A stretch of DNA of 44,254 bases. Source: Acuticoccus mangrovi (GTDB lineage: Bacteria > Pseudomonadota > Alphaproteobacteria > Rhizobiales > Amorphaceae). A program made the translations under genes and the position numbers. The stretch covers positions 1-44,254 of the forward strand of contig NZ_JAEKJA010000014.1 in the NCBI RefSeq assembly GCF_016411865.1. The letters are read 5' to 3'. Under the pieces are notes generated by a model that saw only the letters and a list, made by a program, of their open reading frames with translations, did no database searches and was not told the origin of the DNA. Positions 29,607-38,774 of the stretch are shown here, piece after piece. The number at the start of each line of letters is the position of its first letter. Position 1 is the stretch's first letter.

Positions 29607-30446
29607 CTAGCCGAATAGTCCCCGACTTGCTGCCGCGTCGAACCATTCGAGGCTCTCCGACTTGGTGACCGCACGGCCGAGGACGACGACCGCCGGCGTG
29701 GGCAGGTCGCGCGGCGTCGTCGCCTCCCCAAGCGACAGACGAATCACCGCCTGATCGGGCAGCGTCGCGTGGGCGATGACCGCCACGGGCTCGTCGGGCG
29801 CGCGGCCGCCGGCGATGAGGCGTTGGGCGATGGCCGGAAGGTGCTTGGCTGCCATATACATGACGACGACCGGCGAGGCCTTGGCGACCATCGGCCAGTC
29901 GATCGCGTGGGGTAGGGCGCCGGTGAGATCGTGCCCGGTGAGAAAGGTGACGGATTGGTTGATGTCGCGATGGGTGGCCGGGAGCCCCGCATAGGCGAGC
30001 CCGCCGAGACCGGCCGAGATGCCCGGCACCACGCGGTAGGCGATGCCGGCGCGGTAGAGCGCCTCGCACTCCTCGCCGCCGCGCCCGAACATGAACGGAT
30101 CGCCGCCCTTGAGGCGCAGCACCCGCGCGCCGGTCCGCGCCTCACCGATCAGCGTCTCGGTGATGTCGGCCTGGACGGCGGACGGCTTGCCGCCCCGCTT
30201 GCCGGCGTAGATGCGGCGCGTGCCGGGGCGGGCGAAGCCGAGCACCGCCTCGCCGACGAGGGCGTCGTGCACCACCACGTCGGCGTGGCAGAGGGCGTGG
30301 TAGCCGAGGAGGGTGAGGAGCCCCGGCGCTCCGGGGCCCGCGCCCACGAGCCAGACGCTGCCCGGCGCGAAGTCGGGGAAGGGCGCGCCGTCGAGGGCGG
30401 CGAAGCGGCCTTCGTCGCCGCGCCCGTCGTTGCTGCAGCCGTTCAT
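29607..30446 (-). CDS. cobA: Uroporphyrinogen-III C-methyltransferase (SUMT)
   Basis: Adds methyl groups at C2 and C7 of uroporphyrinogen III to give precorrin-2, the entry to corrins (and sirohaem). 279 residues. VGAGPGAPGLLTLLGY near residues 33-48 is the SAM-binding start of the tetrapyrrole methylase fold, and [21 protein letters not shown] and THRDINQS are typical SUMT motifs. About 30 extra residues precede the domain. The ATG at 30446 has GAGGG 4 bases upstream. No CysG-type dehydrogenase domain is fused. The start codon shares its first base with the TTG of the divergent cbiD gene. Confidence 0.94.
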   Translation of the reverse strand: MNGCSNDGRGDEGRFAALDGAPFPDFAPGSVWLVGAGPGAPGLLTLLGYHALCHADVVVHDALVGEAVLGFARPGTRRIYAGKRGGKPSAVQADITETLIGEARTGARVLRLKGGDPFMFGRGGEECEALYRAGIAYRVVPGISAGLGGLAYAGLPATHRDINQSVTFLTGHDLTGALPHAIDWPMVAKASPVVVMYMAAKHLPAIAQRLIAGGRAPDEPVAVIAHATLPDQAVIRLSLGEATTPRDLPTPAVVVLGRAVTKSESLEWFDAAASRGLFG

Positions 30447-31543
30447 TGAGCCCTCACCGCGACAGCATTGGGGAGAGCGACCGTCCGCTGCGTTCGGGCT
30501 GGACCACCGGGGCCTGCGCGACGGCGGCGGCGAAGGCGGCCTACGCCGCGCTCCTCACCGGCGCCTTTCCCGACCCCGTGGCGATCACCCTGCCGCGGGG
30601 CGGCACCGCGAGCTTCGCTCTCGCCGAGGAGCGGCTCGGCGAGGGCGAAGCGATGGCGGGCGTGGTGAAGGACGCCGGCGACGACCCCGACGTCACCCAC
30701 GGGGCGACGGTGTGGGCGCGGGTGCGGCGGCGGGCGGCGGGCGGCGTCGCCTTCGTCGCCGGCGAGGGGGTCGGCACCGTTACCCGGCAGGGCCTTCCGA
30801 TCGACGTCGGCGAACCCGCCATCAACCCGGTGCCGCGCCGCATGATCGCGACGGCGATCGCCGAGGTGGCGGCACAGAACGGAGCGGACGGCAACGTCGT
30901 CGTCACGATCGGCGTGGTCGACGGGGAGCGGCTCGCGGCGCGCACCTGGAACCCGCGCCTCGGCATTCTGGGGGGGCTGTCGATCCTCGGCACCACCGGG
31001 ATCGTGACGCCCTATTCGTGCTCGGCGTGGATCCATTCGATCCACCGCGGCATTGATGTGGCGCGGGCCGAAGGCGTGCCGCACGTCGCGGCGGCCACCG
31101 GCTCCACGTCGGAGCGGACCGCCCAGACCGTGCTCGGTCTGCCCGACCACGCGATGCTCGACATGGGCGATTTCGCGGGAGGCGTCTTGAAATATCTGCG
31201 TGATCATCCTGTGCCGAGGCTGACGATCGCCGGAGGCTTTGCCAAGCTGTCGAAGCTTGCGGCGGGGGCGCTCGATCTTCACTCCTCGCGCTCGGAGGTG
31301 GATATGGGGGCGCTCGGCCAGTGGGCCGCCGAGGCGGGTGTCGATGCCGGGACGGTCGCGGCCATCACCGCGGCGCCGACGGCGATGGCCGCCTTGGCGG
31401 TGGCGCGGGAGCGGGGGGCGCCGCTCGCCGACCTCGTCGCCGTGCGGGCGCGGGCGGCGGCGCTGAAGCATCTGCGTGGTGCGCCGGTCGCCGTCGGCAT
31501 CCTGGTGGTCGATCGCAAGGGGGAGGTGGTGGCGCATGTCTAA
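30446..31543 (+). CDS. cbiD: Cobalt-precorrin-5B C1-methyltransferase (CbiD)
   Basis: Methylates C1 of the corrin ring in the cobalt-containing (anaerobic-type) route. 365 residues with the N-terminal LRSGWTTGACATAAAKAA signature, and GEPAINPVPRRMI, LGILGGLSILGTTGIV and PRLTIAGGFAKLSKLA further on. The only in-frame start that keeps the family N-terminus is the TTG at 30446, without a visible SD, which touches the cobA ATG on the other strand. CobF, the aerobic counterpart, is absent from the window. It overlaps cobK by 8 bases at its 3' end. Confidence 0.93.
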   Translation: MSPHRDSIGESDRPLRSGWTTGACATAAAKAAYAALLTGAFPDPVAITLPRGGTASFALAEERLGEGEAMAGVVKDAGDDPDVTHGATVWARVRRRAAGGVAFVAGEGVGTVTRQGLPIDVGEPAINPVPRRMIATAIAEVAAQNGADGNVVVTIGVVDGERLAARTWNPRLGILGGLSILGTTGIVTPYSCSAWIHSIHRGIDVARAEGVPHVAAATGSTSERTAQTVLGLPDHAMLDMGDFAGGVLKYLRDHPVPRLTIAGGFAKLSKLAAGALDLHSSRSEVDMGALGQWAAEAGVDAGTVAAITAAPTAMAALAVARERGAPLADLVAVRARAAALKHLRGAPVAVGILVVDRKGEVVAHV

Positions 31544-32261
31544 GCTACTGATCCTCGGCGGGACGGAGGAGGCGCGCGAGCTCGCCGAACGGCTCGACGA
31601 GCGCGGCGCCGACTTCACCGTCTCCCTCGCCGGCCGCACCTCGGCCGACTATCCGGGCACCGTCCGCCGCGGCGGCTTCGGCGGCGAGGAGGCGCTCACC
31701 GCCTATCTGAAGGCCGAGGAGGTGGAGGTGCTCGTCGACGCCTCCCACCCCTTCGCCGCCACCATCAGCCCGGCCGCCAAGCGGGCCGCGCGCGCCGCCG
31801 GGGTGCGCTATTTCCGCCTGGAGCGCCCTCCTTGGCGCCGTGCACTCGGCGATCGATGGATCGACGTGCGCACCCTCGAGGAGGCCGCCGAGCGGATCGA
31901 CGAGGGCTCGCGCGTGTTTCTGACGGTGGGGGCGGGCGGCCTCGCCCCCTTCCTCGCGCGGCGCGACCTCGAGCTCGTCGCCCGCACCATCGAGGTGCCC
32001 GACCTCGGCTCGCGCAAGGACGTGGTGGTGATCCGCGAGCGTGGCCCCTTCGACATCGAGCACGAGCGGGCGATCTTCGACCGCTTCCGCTTCGACGCCA
32101 TGGTGACGAAGAATGCCGGCGGCGAGGCGACGGCGGCCAAGCTGGTCGCCGCCCGCGAGCGGCGTCTGGTAGTCTACATGGTGCAGCGCCCGCGAGGCCA
32201 GCCCCACGCCAACGCCCGCGACGTCGACACCATGATGCGCCGCCTCCGCCACTATCTCTGA
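31536..32261 (+). CDS. cobK: Precorrin-6A / cobalt-precorrin-6A reductase
   Basis: NADPH-dependent reduction of the macrocycle of (cobalt-)precorrin-6A. 241 residues; the N-terminus [20 protein letters not shown] and the segments [19 protein letters not shown] and [18 protein letters not shown] match CobK/CbiJ. The start is the ATG at 31536 inside the end of cbiD, with GGAGG 9 bases upstream, so translation is coupled. Its 3' end overlaps the convergent cobM by 10 bases. The fold does not tell whether cobalt is already in the ring; cluster context suggests it is (CbiJ role). Confidence 0.93.
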
Positions 32262-33019
32262 GCCGTCTTCTGGTTGCGGAAGATGTGGCGGTGGGCCGGG
32301 TCGTAGAGGGCGGAGTCGGTGAAGTCGCCGGCATCGAGCACCCGCCCCACCAGGATGAGGGCGGTGCGGGTGATTTTCGCCGCCCGCACCAGTCCGGCGA
32401 TGGTCTGAAGCGTTCCCCGGATCACCTCCTCGTCGGGCCAGGAGGCGCGCACCACGACCACCACCGGGCAGTCGGCGCCGTAGTGCGGTGTCAGCTCCGC
32501 CACCACGTGACGGATGTTGCGCACCGAGAGATGGATCGCGAGCGTCGCCCCCGAGGCGCCGAGCGTCGAAAGGTCTTCCCGGTTGGGCATCTTCGACGAC
32601 TTCATGGCGGTGCGGGTGAGGATCACCGTCTGGGCGACGTCGGGAAGGGTGAGCTCAGTCTTGAGCGTCGCCGCCGCGGCGGCGAAGGCGGGCACGCCCG
32701 GCACGATGTCGTAGGGGATCGACAGGGCGTCGAGCCGGCGCATCTGCTCGCCCGTCGCGCCGTAGAGGGAGGGGTCGCCGGAATGGACGCGGGCGACGTC
32801 GTGGCCCGCCGCGTGGGCGGCCACCATCTCGGCGAGGATGTCGTCGAGCGTCATCGATGCGGTGTCGACGACGCGGGCGCCCTCCGGCGCCTCGGCCACC
32901 ACCGCCTCCGGCACCAGCGACCCGGCGAAGAGGCAGACGGGCGAGGAGCGGATCAGGTTGAGGCCGCGCACCGTGATGAGATCGGGCGCGCCGGGCCCGG
33001 CGCCGATGAAGTGGATCAT
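32252..33019 (-). CDS. cobM: Precorrin-4 / cobalt-precorrin-4 C11-methyltransferase (CobM/CbiF)
   Basis: SAM-dependent tetrapyrrole methylase, 255 residues. [19 protein letters not shown], the LFAGSLVPE and TASMTLDD segments and [15 protein letters not shown] identify the CobM/CbiF branch; [12 protein letters not shown] and [10 protein letters not shown] are further family pieces. The ATG overlaps the stop of the triple-fusion gene as ATGA, with GAGG a few bases upstream. Last gene of the minus-strand corrin operon that begins near 38774, and convergent (10-base overlap) with cobK. Confidence 0.94.
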
Positions 33020-35511
33020 GGGTGAACCTCGTAGCCGCGCGGGGTGTAGACGTGGATCCGGCCGTCGCCCCGGGTGAAGCGGTGCGTGGTGGAGGCGCCG
33101 ACGAGGACGGTGGCGAGCATGTCGACCCGCTCCGCGTCGAGGGCACCGAGGGTGGTGTGGTGGAGCGCTTCGGCGGGGCGGCCGAGGCTCGCGGCGACGA
33201 CCACGGGCGTCGCGGCGGGCCGGTGGGCGCGGAAGATCTCGAGCGCCTCGGTGAGCTGCGACGTGCGGCGCCGCGAGCGCGGATTATAGAGGGCGACGAC
33301 GAAATCGCCCACTGCTGCCGCCTCCAGGCGCCGGCGGATCGCCTCCCACGGCGTCATCAGGTCGGAGAGGGAGACGAAGGCGAAGTCGTGCCCGAGCGGT
33401 GCGCCGAGGCGGGCGGCGGCGGCCTGCGCCGCGGAGATTCCGGGCACCACCTCCACCGCCACGCGGCGGGCGCCCTCGCTGAGGTTGCCGGTGTCGAGGA
33501 GCTCCATCGCGAGCGTCGCCATCGCGTAGATGCCGGGGTCGCCGGAGGAGATCAGCGCCACGTCGCGCCCCGTGCCGGCGAGCTCCAGCGCGTAGCGGAC
33601 GCGGGCGGTCTCCTCGCCGAGGGCGAAGTCGTGCCGGCTCTGGCTGCCGCGCAGATCCTCCACGAGGTCGAGGTAGAGAGTGTAGCCGACGAAGGCGTCG
33701 GCGCGGGCGAGGGCGTCGAGGCATTCGAGGGTGCGCCAGCGCGCGGTGCCGGGGCCGATGCCGACGACGCGCAGGCGCCCGCGTGCCCGCCCCACGGTGG
33801 GGGTGATCGGGCGCACTGCCGCCGCGAGCGCCAGCGTGAGGGCGCCCTCGACGCGCTTGGGCATGATGAGAGCGCCGTCCGGACCGGCGGCGGCGAGCGC
33901 GGCGGCCTCGGCGACGCCGGCGACGCCCACCGCCGCCCGCACCGTTTCGGACGGGGTGGCGAGGCGCGGCTCCTGCGCGGCGAGGGTGGCGGCGTCGAAC
34001 ACGCGCAGCGGCGCGCCGAGATCGGCGGCGACGGCGGCGAGGGCCGCCTCGTCGGCCTTCTTGTCGAGCGACACGACGACGGCGACGGCGCGCGGGTCGA
34101 TCGCCGCCGCGTCGAGCGCGGCGCGGGCGAAGTCTACGGCGGCGGCCGGGTCGGCATGGCGTTCCGCCCCCATGCCGAGCGCCACGCGGCGGGCGACATA
34201 GGTGGGCACGATGTCGGCGTCCGCGGCGGGGTGGATGGTGGAGCGGATCGGCGCCGCACCCGCGGGGAGCGAGGCGAGGAAGTCGAGCGAGGGATCGGGC
34301 GCCGCCCCGCCGCCGGCGGCAAGGTCGGCGGCGAGCCGCTTGAAGGGGCGCGGATCGGCGACGCGCCAGCCCGCCGGCGGGTCGTCGAGCGCGACGCCGA
34401 GGCGCACCTCGCCCTGGGTGGTGGCGGCGGGTGCGACGCCGAACGTCTCACCGAGGAGGGTGGCGATCCGGCCGCCGCCGCGATGGGCGCCGAGGAGGGG
34501 CACCACAGCGCTGCCGTCCTCGGCGAGGGCGAGGAGGGCGGGCTCGGCGGGCTTGTCGGCAAGGTAGGGCGCGACGGCGCGGATCAGGATGCCGGCCGAC
34601 ATCACCCCCACCACCGTGTGGCCGGTCGCGAAGAGGTGGCCGATGTGATGGCGCGCGGCCGCGAAGGGCACGTCGACCGCCTCCGCCTCCACCCGCGCGA
34701 CGAGGCCGTGGAGGCGCGCGTCGATGCCGGCCGCGGCGAGCGTGGCCTTCGCCGCCCGCGCGGTCGCGAGCGCCGAGGGGCCGAGCACCACGACCGCGAC
34801 CGGCGCGTCGACGTCCACGGCCGGCCGCGAGGACATGTCCGAGCTCGCGGCGGGCACGAGGACGGTCGAGAAATAGGGCTTGGGGCCGGGGGGCGCGTCG
34901 TTGAGCGGGGTGATCTCCTGCTCGGGCAAGGTCGCGCGGGCGATCAGCGTGCCGTCGCGCCCGGCAGCCCGGATCAGCGCTTTGACGGCGTCGAAATGGC
35001 GGCCGATCTTGTAGATCACCAGCGCACCGTCGGCGGCGAGGGATGCGCGCAGCCTCTCCGCCGAGGCGGTGGCGGGCAGGATCGTCAATGGCTCGGAGTA
35101 GCGCACCATGCTGGTGCCTGACACCGCCGCGCACGCGGAGGCGGCCGTGACGCCCGGCACCACGTCCACCGCGAAGCGTCCGGCGAGGCGCGCCATCACC
35201 GACGCGGCGCTGCCATAGAGCATCGGATCGCCTTCGCACAGGAGCGCGACGGTGCGGCCGGCTGAGAGGTGGCCGGCGATGGTCTCGGCTGCGGCGTCGT
35301 AGGCGGCCTCGGCGGCGCCATCCCCCGACATCGGGATCGCGAAGGCGAAGTGCTCGGCCGCGCCGATGTGGGCGGCCGCGATGCGGGCGGCGAAGCTTCC
35401 CTGCGAGCTGACGGGGTAGGCGACGACGTCGGCCGCGGCGAGGATGCGGACCGCCTTCAGCGTCAGGAGTTCGGGATCGCCGGGGCCGACGCCCACGATT
35501 GTGAGGGTCAT
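33016..35511 (-). CDS. CobI-CbiG-CobJ triple-domain corrin enzyme
   Basis: An 831-residue cytosolic fusion of three consecutive activities. Residues 1-225: precorrin-2 C20-methyltransferase (CobI/Cbi[28 protein letters not shown]). Residues about 238-570: CbiG/CobE, the lactone-opening deacylase in the cobalt route ([42 protein letters not shown]). Residues 579-831: precorrin-3B C17-methyltransferase (CobJ/Cbi[38 protein letters not shown]). In the CbiG C-terminal part the usual GxGCR is GMGAER. The ATG has GGGAG 8 bases upstream. CbiG-CobJ fusions are known; adding CobI places C20 and C17 methylation and ring-contraction partners in one chain. Confidence 0.9.
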
Positions 35512-35575: not shown

Positions 35576-36727
35576 TCAAGGCTTCACCCCCCGCCACTGG
35601 AGGACGGGCATCGCGGGCTTCATGGCGACGAGCCGGCCAACGGGCTCGGCGTGGGAAAGGGCGATGCGTGTCAGGCGGCCGCCGTGGAGGGCGTAGCGGG
35701 CAAGGGTCGCCGCCTCGCCGGACAGGGTGACGGCGTTGGAGACGATCACGCCGCCGGGCGGCAGGCGCTGCCAGAGCGCTGCGAACAGAACGTCGTCGGC
35801 GACGCCGCCGCCGAGGAACACGGCGTCGGGGGGCGCGGCCTCGGCGAGCCGGTCGGCCGCCTCGCCGGCGAGGAGGGTGGCGCGGGTGCACGTCGCCGCG
35901 AGGTTCTCCCGGATCGCCGCGATGCGGGACGGGACGCGCTCGAAGAGCGTCGCCGTGCCGCCGGTGCGGCACCAGTCGATGGCGACGGCGCCGCTGCCCG
36001 CCCCGACGTCCCAAAGATGGCCGGGCGCGCCGAGGGCGGCGAGGGTGAGGGCGCGGATTTCGTCGCGCGTGACGCAGCCGTCGTGGACGAGATCGTCGAC
36101 GCCGACGGGGCCGGGGCGGCGGCACTCCACCGAGACGACGTTGAGCGCGGCGAATTCGCCGGCGACGGAGCGGGCGATGGTGGCCTCGACGGCGGCCTCG
36201 GGGCTGCCGAGATTCTGCAGGATGTGGACGGGGCTGTCGCCGTAGCCGGCGCCCGTCAGGATGGCGGCGATGCGGGCCGGCGCGCCGCCGTCGCGGGTCA
36301 GCGCCAGGAGGCGTCGGCCGGGGGCGGCGTGGGTGAGGATGTCCGTTTCGGGTGCGGCGTGGAGGGAGAGGGTGGTGACGCTCTCCTGCGCCCAGCCGTG
36401 TCGTGCCGCCGCCAGCGCGAACGCGGAGGGCGCCGGGTAGACGCTCATCTCCTCGATCGGGACGTGGGCGAGGAGCGTGGTGGCGACGCCGTAGTGCAGC
36501 GGATCGCCCGAGGCGAGCACCGTCGTGGGGGTGCCGCGCCGGGCGAGGATCGCGGCGATGCCCTCCGAAAAGGGGCGCGGCCAGGGGTGGCGGGCCGCCG
36601 CCGGCACCCCGACCGCCTCGAGCAGGCGGGGGGCGCCGAACACCGCCCCCTCGAGCGCCCCACGGGGCGCGCGAGGGGCGAGGGTGCCGTCGGGAAGGCA
36701 GCCGATCACGGTGAGCCAGGGGGCCAT
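35576..36727 (-). CDS. cobL: Precorrin-6Y C5,15-methyltransferase (CbiE-CbiT fusion, CobL)
   Basis: Methylates C5 and C15 and decarboxylates the acetate chain at C12. 383 residues in two domains: CbiE-type methylase at about 1-200 (SGDPLHYG at 73-80; SEGIAAIL, VYPAPSAFALA) and CbiT-type Rossmann methyltransferase at about 210-383 (WDVGAGSGAVAIDW at 239-252; VFLGGGVADDVL). Fused CobL is the normal aerobe form; anaerobes often have separate CbiE and CbiT. It starts 4 bases after the CbiX-CbiC stop and is followed after 64 bases by the triple fusion, all in one operon. Confidence 0.94.
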   Translation of the reverse strand: MAPWLTVIGCLPDGTLAPRAPRGALEGAVFGAPRLLEAVGVPAAARHPWPRPFSEGIAAILARRGTPTTVLASGDPLHYGVATTLLAHVPIEEMSVYPAPSAFALAAARHGWAQESVTTLSLHAAPETDILTHAAPGRRLLALTRDGGAPARIAAILTGAGYGDSPVHILQNLGSPEAAVEATIARSVAGEFAALNVVSVECRRPGPVGVDDLVHDGCVTRDEIRALTLAALGAPGHLWDVGAGSGAVAIDWCRTGGTATLFERVPSRIAAIRENLAATCTRATLLAGEAADRLAEAAPPDAVFLGGGVADDVLFAALWQRLPPGGVIVSNAVTLSGEAATLARYALHGGRLTRIALSHAEPVGRLVAMKPAMPVLQWRGVKP

Positions 36728-36731
36728 GATG

Positions 36732-38570
36732 TCAGCGGGCGATGGCGTTGAGCGCGGCGCCCGCCATGGCGCTGCCGCCGCGACGGCCGGTGAGCGTCGC
36801 GAACGGCACGTCCGGGTCGAGGGCGACGAGGGCCGCCTTCGATTCCAGCGCGCCGACGAAGCCCACCGGGAAGGCGAGGATGGCCGCCGGCCGCACCCCC
36901 TTGTTGAGGAGATCGATCAGCTCGAAGAGCGCCGTCGGCGCGTTGCCGATCACGACGATGCCGCCCGCGATCTCCGCCGCCGCCCGCCGGATCGCGATCG
37001 CCGAGCGCGTGGTGGCGGCGGCCTCGGCCTCGGCGGGCGTCGCCTCGTCGTTGAGGTGGCAGACGACGCGGGCGGGATCGACGTAACGCGCCGAGATCGC
37101 GTGGCGCGTCATCTCGCTGTCGACCACCACGGGCGCACCGGCGGCGAGGGCGGCGCGCGTCGCCGCCACGAGATCGCCGGAGAACACGAGGTCGTCCAGG
37201 ATCTCCGTGTCGCCGGCGGCGTGGGCGATGCGCTCGGCGACGGGGGCGTTGACCCCGAAACGCTCGAGATCGGCTTCGGCGCGGATGATCGCGAACGACT
37301 TCGCCGTGATCGCCTCCGGGTCGCGCTCATAGAGCACGGCACCGTCGCGCACCACGCTCACCGGCCCGAACGGATGCTTCTCGTGCGGGTAGTGGTGGTG
37401 ATGGTCGTGGCCGTGATCGTGCCCATTATGATGGTGCTCATGATCATGCGCGTCGCCATGGTGATGATCATGGTCGTGAGCGTGAGCGTGAGCGTGCCCG
37501 TGGGCGTGCGTGTGGCCGTGATGGTGGCTGTGCGAGTGACCCTCGCCATGGTCGTGGTCATGCCCATGGTCGTGGCTGTGCCCATGATCGTGGTCATGCC
37601 CGTGATCGTGGGGGAGGAGCACGCGGCAGGCCCCGGTGCAGAAGGTGTCGCACAGGCTGCACGTCTCGACCGAGGAGCCGGGGGCGGAGGCGCCCATGCC
37701 CTCCACGTGATGGTGGTGGCTTTCCTGCGGCGCGCCGACGTCGACCTCGAAGCCCAGCACCTGGGTGCGGTACTTGCACATGCCGCAGTTCATCACCGCC
37801 TGGCCTTGGAGGATCTCGGTGACGCGCTCTTCGAAGGTGTCGAGCACGGCCGGATGGTCGCCGAGATAGGCGGCCTTGGCGAAGTGAATCTCGGGATGCC
37901 GGGCCGCCACGCGGTCGGTGAAACCGTAGATGCGGTCGATCAGGATCCCCGAGAACAGGAAGTAGGGGAACACGATCACCCGGCGGAAGCCGAGCCGCGT
38001 CACCCTGTCGAGACAGGGCTCGACCAGCGGGAAGGTGACCCCGGAATAGCCGATCTCGCACCAGCCGAAGCCGAAGCCCTCCCAGAGGAGCCGGGCGACC
38101 TTCGCCACGTTGGCGTTGGCGTCGGGGTCGGAGGCGCCGCGGCCGATCACGACGAGGCAGGTATCGGAGGCGGGAGCCTCGCCGTGGGCCGCGTTCAAGG
38201 CGTCGATCGCCGCCTGCACCCGGTCCGCGGCGGCCTTCAGCATGCGCGCGTCGACGCCGAGGTCGCGGCCGTAGTCGATGCGGATGCCGTGCTTCAGCGC
38301 GTAGGCGTTGAGGACGCTCGGAATGTCGTTCTTGGCGTGCGAGGCGGCGAACAGCATCCCCGGCACGGCGAGGACGTGCTCCACGCCCTGGCCGCGCAGT
38401 TTGTCGAGCCCGTCGCGGATGACGGGATTGGCGAACTCCAGATAGCCATACTCCACCGGCCATTGCGGAAAGCGGGTACGCAGGGCCTCCGCCACGGTCG
38501 CGAATTCGGCGACCGCGCTCCCGGAGCGGGAGCCATGGCCGCAGACCATGACCCCGATATGCTCGTTCAT
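36732..38570 (-). CDS. CbiX cobaltochelatase - His-rich linker - CbiC/CobH methylmutase fusion
   Basis: A 612-residue fusion. Residues 1-260: long-form CbiX sirohydrochlorin cobaltochelatase, with catalytic histidines His12 (CGHGSR) and His78 (AASHAKND). Residues 260-265 read MNCGMC, the MXCXXC motif that holds a 4Fe-4S cluster in Bacillus megaterium CbiX; a second Cys group lies at 304, 307, 311 and 315. Residues 321-400 are His/Asp-rich, 41 His in 80, a metal store or delivery segment. Residues about 400-612: precorrin-8X methylmutase (CobH/CbiC), with the probable catalytic His450 in RIAHAAGD. The two enzymes act at the beginning and near the end of the corrin route. It follows the 66-residue gene by 3 bases. 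Confidence 0.92.
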   Translation of the reverse strand: MNEHIGVMVCGHGSRSGSAVAEFATVAEALRTRFPQWPVEYGYLEFANPVIRDGLDKLRGQGVEHVLAVPGMLFAASHAKNDIPSVLNAYALKHGIRIDYGRDLGVDARMLKAAADRVQAAIDALNAAHGEAPASDTCLVVIGRGASDPDANANVAKVARLLWEGFGFGWCEIGYSGVTFPLVEPCLDRVTRLGFRRVIVFPYFLFSGILIDRIYGFTDRVAARHPEIHFAKAAYLGDHPAVLDTFEERVTEILQGQAVMNCGMCKYRTQVLGFEVDVGAPQESHHHHVEGMGASAPGSSVETCSLCDTFCTGACRVLLPHDHGHDHDHGHSHDHGHDHDHGEGHSHSHHHGHTHAHGHAHAHAHDHDHHHGDAHDHEHHHNGHDHGHDHHHHYPHEKHPFGPVSVVRDGAVLYERDPEAITAKSFAIIRAEADLERFGVNAPVAERIAHAAGDTEILDDLVFSGDLVAATRAALAAGAPVVVDSEMTRHAISARYVDPARVVCHLNDEATPAEAEAAATTRSAIAIRRAAAEIAGGIVVIGNAPTALFELIDLLNKGVRPAAILAFPVGFVGALESKAALVALDPDVPFATLTGRRGGSAMAGAALNAIAR

Positions 38571-38573
38571 GGC

Positions 38574-38774
38574 TTAGCGGGCGCGGCGTTTGGCGAGGCG
38601 AGCGCGATGGATCCGGACCGCCGTCGGCAGGAGCGCGAGGACGATGAGCGCCGCCATCGTGATCAGCCCGAAGGCGATGTAGTGGGTATGCCCGGAGACC
38701 TCTCCCACGTGGCCCGGGTGGGCGAACGCGGCGGTCGCGGCAAGGAGAAGGTTGAGAACGATGATCGTGCGCAT
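38574..38774 (-). CDS. Small His-containing membrane protein at head of corrin operon
   Basis: A 66-residue protein: an N-terminal hydrophobic segment or signal peptide (residues 2-18, ending AFA), a short loop HPGHVGEVSGHTHY with five His in 14 residues, a second membrane segment (about 33-52) and a very basic tail (HRARLAKRRAR). Topology suggests the His loop is periplasmic. Similar tiny proteins occur beside cobalamin genes in alphaproteobacteria (I recall the label DUF6732, unchecked). The start is the ATG at 38774 with GAGAGG 4 bases upstream. It is the first gene of the CbiX-CbiC / cobL / triple-fusion / cobM operon. I infer a role in cobalt or other metal handling. Confidence 0.75.
   Translation of the reverse strand: MRTIIVLNLLLAATAAFAHPGHVGEVSGHTHYIAFGLITMAALIVLALLPTAVRIHRARLAKRRAR

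Follow-up and report, generated by a model that had tools for sequence, protein, structure and literature searches.

A single open reading frame of Acuticoccus mangrovi joins a long cobalt chelatase, CbiX, to the precorrin-8X methylmutase CbiC, and it lies in the window, the 44,254-nucleotide stretch of DNA that was analysed (contig NZ_JAEKJA010000014.1; Table 1). The favoured reading, to which a probability of about three in four is given, is that the frame encodes one bifunctional B12 enzyme that arose when two adjacent genes were joined once, in a near-neutral event, in an ancestor common to most of the genus. This corrects a tempting reading in which the metal-rich stretch between the two enzymes would itself be the novelty, as that stretch is a tail present in close relatives without the fusion and it is mainly the joining that is new.

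Table 1. Features of the fused gene, its cluster and the late cobalt-insertion genes of the same genome (G000). Positions are those of the window unless a contig is named.
Feature	Position	Strand	Details
Fused cbiX-cbiC ORF	36732..38570	-	612 aa plus stop; ATG start, no internal stop
CbiX-L chelatase part	37806..38570	-	residues 1-255; Pfam PF01903
MNCGMC (MxCxxC motif)	37776..37793	-	residues 260-265
Second Cys group, C304-x2-C307-x3-C311-x3-C315	37626..37661	-	residues 304-315
His-rich tract	37371..37610	-	residues 321-400, 41 His
CbiX end motif YPHEKHPFGP	37362..37391	-	residues 394-403
Fusion junction	37332..37352	-	7 residues, 407-413, between GPVSV and YERDP
CbiC precorrin-8X methylmutase part	36735..37331	-	residues 414-612; Pfam PF02570
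cbiET	35576..36727	-	4 nt downstream of fused ORF; CbiE and CbiT profiles score slightly below cut-off
CbiL-CbiG-CbiH (CbiH/CobJ) triple fusion	33016..35511	-	one 831-aa chain; profile matches
cobM/cbiF	32252..33019	-	TIGR01465 over cut-off
cbiD (cobalt-early type)	30446..31543	+	TIGR00312 over cut-off
cobK/cbiJ	31476..32261	+	NF005968 over cut-off
DUF6732 small protein	38574..38774	-	66 aa from inner ATG; PF20506 over cut-off; 3 nt upstream of fused ORF
cobW-cobN region	G000 C1 (L117, L138)		late cobalt-insertion genes
cobT	G000 C63:183945-185744 (L139)		late cobalt-insertion gene

The Fused Protein

Pfam places both domains in the 612-residue frame, CbiX first (E 6.4e-49 in two stretches, the best at 12-114) and CbiC last (E 6.2e-56 at 421-611), which bears out the claim of an earlier, sequence-only reading that the two lie on one chain. 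The 41 His in 80 residues, the MNCGMC motif and the C-x2-C-x3-C-x3-C group that it described are likewise all present. Coding appears to run uninterrupted through the His tract, since both His codons are used in residues 319-397 (26 CAC and 14 CAT) and GC3 is 0.70-0.97 across the five segments of the frame that were tested. Short repeats of 6, 12 and 18 nt are found within the tract by Tandem Repeats Finder, and variation in its length may stem from such repeats. When compared with the fused genes of Acuticoccus kalidii (L002) and A. yangtzensis (L004), the CbiX and CbiC parts give dS values of 0.55-0.74 and dN values of 0.12-0.20 (four comparisons), and the resulting dN/dS of about 0.2-0.3 indicates purifying selection on both.

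Judged from its sequence, the chelatase part is intact. The CbiX domain is duplicated within the chain, with two PF01903 stretches, a two-lobed SirB match spans residues 7-254, and the best fold matches are SirB 6jv6 and 5zt7 (TM by target 0.78-0.82). The catalytic-type residues His12 and His78 both lie in the N-terminal lobe and are invariant in 21 of 21 rows. Of 243 relatives found by scanning public genomes, the best 80 by similarity are the nearest loci referred to here; CGHGSR is present in all 80 and FAAxHxKNDIP in 78. The chain also has the MxCxxC motif and the His-rich C-terminal extension that distinguish CbiX-L.

The CbiC part is intact by sequence as well. It covers positions 2-194 of the 196 in PF02570, a full-length CbiC fold, its model has a pLDDT of 97.2, and its top PDB matches are 3e7d and 1f2v, at TM 0.91-0.92 and 47-51 percent identity. 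H450, invariant in 20 of 20 rows, aligns with a His of 1f2v that we take to be the catalytic one, His43 in CobH. Across these 20 rows, three of them fused, 38 CbiC columns are invariant.

The Linker and the Tail of CbiX

The sequence-only reading had called a fusion to CbiC with a linker of this size and a second Cys group unusual, and for the linker and the Cys group this holds only in part: the arrangement is common in near relatives, while the second Cys group is rare in farther members of the class and the tail in the window stands at the high end. Among the 80 nearest loci (the two fused ones counted), MNCxxC occurs in 74, NCxxC in the remaining six and HHHH(V/S)EG in 79. Seventy loci have the second Cys group, spaced 2-3-3 in 56 of them; L054, among the ten loci without the group, is masked there. 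A loose form of the end motif, YP(H/Q/R)xxHPxG(P/T), is found in 78 loci and the strict form YPHxxHPxGP in 65, the two loci without either being L054, whose tail is masked, and L017, which is cut by the contig end. The strict motif is kept, for example in L013, L042 and the window, though the tract that precedes it varies freely.

Separate CbiX tails are 51-135 aa long and contain 11-47 His, with at least four Cys in 67 (n = 76, L020 and L054 being left out for their unknown residues). Fused tails are 87-127 aa long with 24-44 His (n = 6), and that of the window, with 44 His in 127 aa, lies at the long, His-rich end of the range; its densest 80 residues, starting at residue 321, hold 41 His and 12 Asp. 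In length the fused tails exceed the separate ones (6 vs 76, Mann-Whitney p 0.001), but not in His content (p 0.31), the His fraction being similar in separate CbiX; both p values overstate the case because the species share ancestry. In a wider sample of 20 more distant class members, which is not a random draw, tails are 31-92 aa long with 4-31 His; MNCxxC is present in all 20, at least ten His in 19, the loose end motif in eight and the second Cys group in one. The MxCxxC motif and the His tail are general, while the second Cys group is a feature of nearer relatives, a part of the class.

Because the tail occurs without the fusion in both samples, the linker is best read as the C-terminal tail of CbiX, enclosed by the fusion, and the tail is most likely older than the fusion. 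Residues 261-304 and 306-416 are modelled below pLDDT 50 (residue 305 excepted), as would be expected for a flexible tail, although low confidence is not proof of disorder. According to part of the text of a review, the CbiX-L extension of Bacillus megaterium holds a 4Fe-4S centre together with a His-rich region, its deletion leaves cobalt insertion unaffected, and storage and delivery of cobalt have been proposed (PMC7689651). The cobalt buffering that the sequence-only reading had suggested for the linker would correspond to that proposal. The fusion represents a natural experiment in which a CbiX tail has lost its free end and stayed His-rich, and close relatives with and without the fusion could be compared to test what the CbiX-L tail and its Cys groups do.

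Distribution and Origin of the Fusion

Separate cbiX and cbiC ORFs lie on the same locus in 75 of the 80 nearest loci, in a shared frame in 18 and in different frames in 57. Both domains are in one frame in two loci, those of A. kalidii and A. yangtzensis, and no CbiC ORF was found on the locus in the other three (L017, L053 and L061). CbiC is present in all eight genomes of the window's GTDB genus, and the fusion is stop-free in six of them, namely the own genome (G000), G001, G002, G003, G004 and G007; besides the own genome, it runs without a stop in L002, L004, L083, L084 and L086, and the sequences of G001 and G007, where printed, are identical to those of L002 and L004. G006 shows a pattern that fits a fusion broken by assembly, its CbiC contig (L088) opening in frame inside the His tract and its CbiX part ending another contig. 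The two remaining genomes of the family have the two genes apart (G024) or a match in CbiC only (G136).

The corrin route differs inside the genus, since G005 (L082) gave no CbiX match and has only an aerobic-type CobH, grouped with L089, L091 and L092 from other families.

Between GPxSV and YERDP, the junction measures 7 residues in all seven fused genes (the six stop-free fusions and L088, counted although its contig starts inside the tract), while the length of the tract varies. The two contigs of G006, ending inside the repeat-rich tract, are the kind of break that an assembly or sequencing artefact might produce, but several species' assemblies agree in frame and in junction length, and the chance that the fusion is such an artefact is vanishingly small; a long CbiX is genuinely fused to CbiC. 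The sequence-only reading had also considered that relatives might encode two ORFs and that the fusion might come from a sequencing frameshift. Relatives with two ORFs do exist, as the 75 loci demonstrate, but a frameshift is ruled out by stop-free fusions in multiple assemblies and the constant junction. The same junction speaks to whether the protein is cut, or started internally, to yield separate CbiX and CbiC in the cell. The stretch modelled at low confidence, residues 261-416 with 305 excepted, might resemble an open, protease-prone tether, but no ATG codon lies in the junction of any of the seven fused genes and no GTG codon there is common to all of them, and separation of this kind is considered improbable.

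In a tree of 42 rows, the seven fused-type CbiC domains (L088 included) form one clade with support of 100/98, and the unfused L010 (99/85) and L013 (80/95) are the next branches beside it. There was one joining of adjacent genes, at the genus level, and it was most likely easy because the genes already lay end to end in one operon. Among the matches listed, the fusion is seen only in this genus. Surveys of 385 genomes of the class and 398 of the phylum (partly the same), with at most three candidates per genome scored, gave the own genome as the only stop-free whole-protein match among those listed, and rare fusions may be missed at this depth. Twenty class loci were fetched, either because CbiC was reached through one stop or because the frame was long, at about 560 aa and above, and all 20 have separate ORFs; G628, which seemed stop-free in the class list, proved to have separate cbiX and cbiC on the fetched locus. 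In the survey of the order with the CbiC family, at least 247 of 297 genomes gave a match, and among its long frames the one examined, L090, is a CobG-CobH frame. A CbiX-CbiC fusion of this type appears in no title or abstract opening among the literature matches listed, and CbiX and CbiC are both absent from the main text of a paper on gene fusions in metabolism (PMC4921024).

Other upstream partners occur in one frame with CbiC or CobH too, namely an unnamed domain in three loci scanned and CobG in G231, and joining is thus not special to CbiX. At eight loci (L015:6083-7558, L019, L024, L027, L028, L043, L046 and L068), CbiC starts beyond residue 280 of its frame; in L015, L043 and L068, the stretch ahead of it has no Pfam match and matches the unknown domain of NCBIfam PRK14495, a MobB/unknown fusion. 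In L090 (G231), CobG and CobH lie in one open frame on the minus strand that is cut at the locus edge, with NCBIfam scores of 243 for CobG (cut-off 234.8) and 345 for CobH (cut-off 276).

The B12 Cluster and Cobalt Insertion

CobA and CobB are also found near the cluster of the fused ORF (Table 1), and no cobalamin riboswitch or other Rfam family is detected in the window at the gathering threshold. The small DUF6732 protein encoded just upstream has a signal-peptide-like start, an HxGH...GHxH motif and one hydrophobic stretch. In 33 of the 80 nearest loci, a homologue ends no more than 600 nt ahead of cbiX, and 30 of these 33 have the motif; none was found elsewhere on the loci, nor upstream of the fused gene in L002 and L004. 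The protein is a candidate cobalt-handling partner.

In the own genome, matches to the CobF and CobG models all fall below the cut-offs, and CbiD and CbiG are present, which makes the corrin genes cobalt-early in type. The same genome further carries genes for CobN (1375 bits, cut-off 822), CobW (398, cut-off 332) and CobT (965, cut-off 759); beside CobN stand CobW, CbiB and genes of the cobU, cobO and cobQ types. Part of the text of PMC6593275 treats CbiK/X and CobN as signatures of two routes that are alternatives to each other. Among the 385 class genomes, with the CbiX-L type defined by a best E below 1e-60, 100 have a CbiX-L-type match and 140 a strong CobN match; 98 have both and 42 CobN only, and CbiX-L without CobN is found in G425 and G487 (64 percent complete). 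Nineteen genomes with weaker matches to the CobN model were dropped from this count (best E of 1e-64 to 1e-97 in 17, 1e-10 and 1e-12 in two). As 136 genomes exceed the CobN cut-off, at least four of the 140 are below it; G522 and G566, among the 98, have only contig-cut pieces of CobN, which score under the cut-off. The association has a Fisher p of 1e-54, overstated because the genomes are related. This near-constant company calls into question the assignment of a genome to the early or the late cobalt route from either gene alone. CbiX and CobN have also been noted together in haloarchaea, where a salvage role was suggested, according to part of PMC8305020 (section 3.3); for Alphaproteobacteria, the company of CbiX-L and CobN is treated in no title or abstract opening among the matches listed.

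Function of the Fusion

CbiX and CbiC catalyse steps that are many reactions apart in the pathway, and no direct hand-over is therefore implied. In the bifunctional enzyme proposed here, the CbiX part would insert Co(II) into sirohydrochlorin by means of His12 and His78, and the CbiC part, some 150 residues further along a flexible tether, would shift a methyl group of cobalt-precorrin-8 from C11 to C12. Each part would act independently of the other, the fusion providing 1:1 production and a shared location as opposed to channelling, and whichever part the tail plays in holding metal in separate CbiX would be unchanged. The earlier suggestion that the linker keeps the enzymes together follows from their being one chain.

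Selection for the fusion, in which CbiX, a metal-loaded tail serving as cobalt store and CbiC would be tied together as part of a pathway complex, appears unlikely. Retention in six of eight genus genomes, a constant junction length, purifying selection on both parts and the greater length of fused tails are consistent with it, and the existence of a bifunctional CbiX/CbiC family, NF004449, points to the pair having been joined elsewhere too. The distance between the two steps argues against it, however, as do the adjacency of the genes, which alone makes joining likely, the joining of CbiC/CobH to other upstream neighbours, and the single origin in one genus with no repeated pattern among the Alphaproteobacteria matches listed. 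The longer fused tails could nevertheless reflect some adaptation to use as a tether, which counts against the favoured reading, as do the presence of the second Cys group in only one of the 20 more distant members, by which the tail is not uniform, and a score against NF004449 below its cut-off. The odds of the fusion reading are unaffected by the restriction of the second Cys group to part of the class, since that reading does not rest on it.

It is also conceivable, though highly improbable, that the fused CbiC doubles as a product sensor, binding late corrin intermediates and tuning the release of cobalt by the chelatase and its His store, in a pathway that uses early CbiX-L and late CobN/CobW together. 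A precedent is offered by the cobalt regulator CoaR, which has a CobH-like tetrapyrrole-binding domain according to part of the text of PMC7689651, together with the fold matches of the fused CbiC.

Comparison with Known Systems

The CbiX-L of B. (Priestia) megaterium resembles the fused protein in being a two-lobed class II chelatase with its catalytic His pair in the N-terminal lobe and, by description, in its MxCxxC motif and long His-rich extension; unlike the fused protein, it is not described as joined to CbiC in the part of the text drawn on here (PMC7689651). CbiC/CobH proteins of known structure (1f2v and 3e7d) have the same fold and length as the fused CbiC, which differs in that it has no start of its own and forms the C-terminal part of a larger chain.

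The closest family by name is NCBIfam NF004449, the bifunctional sirohydrochlorin cobalt chelatase/precorrin-8X methylmutase, which presumably describes archaeal proteins. By that name its two activities in one chain are the same, and CbiC occupies the second half of the model, but at 333 aa the model is too short for a long CbiX with its tail, and the fused protein scores 122.4 bits against it, below the cut-off of 298. Both domains and the tail are thus of known kinds, and what is new is the fusion of a long CbiX with its tail enclosed, in one genus as far as seen.
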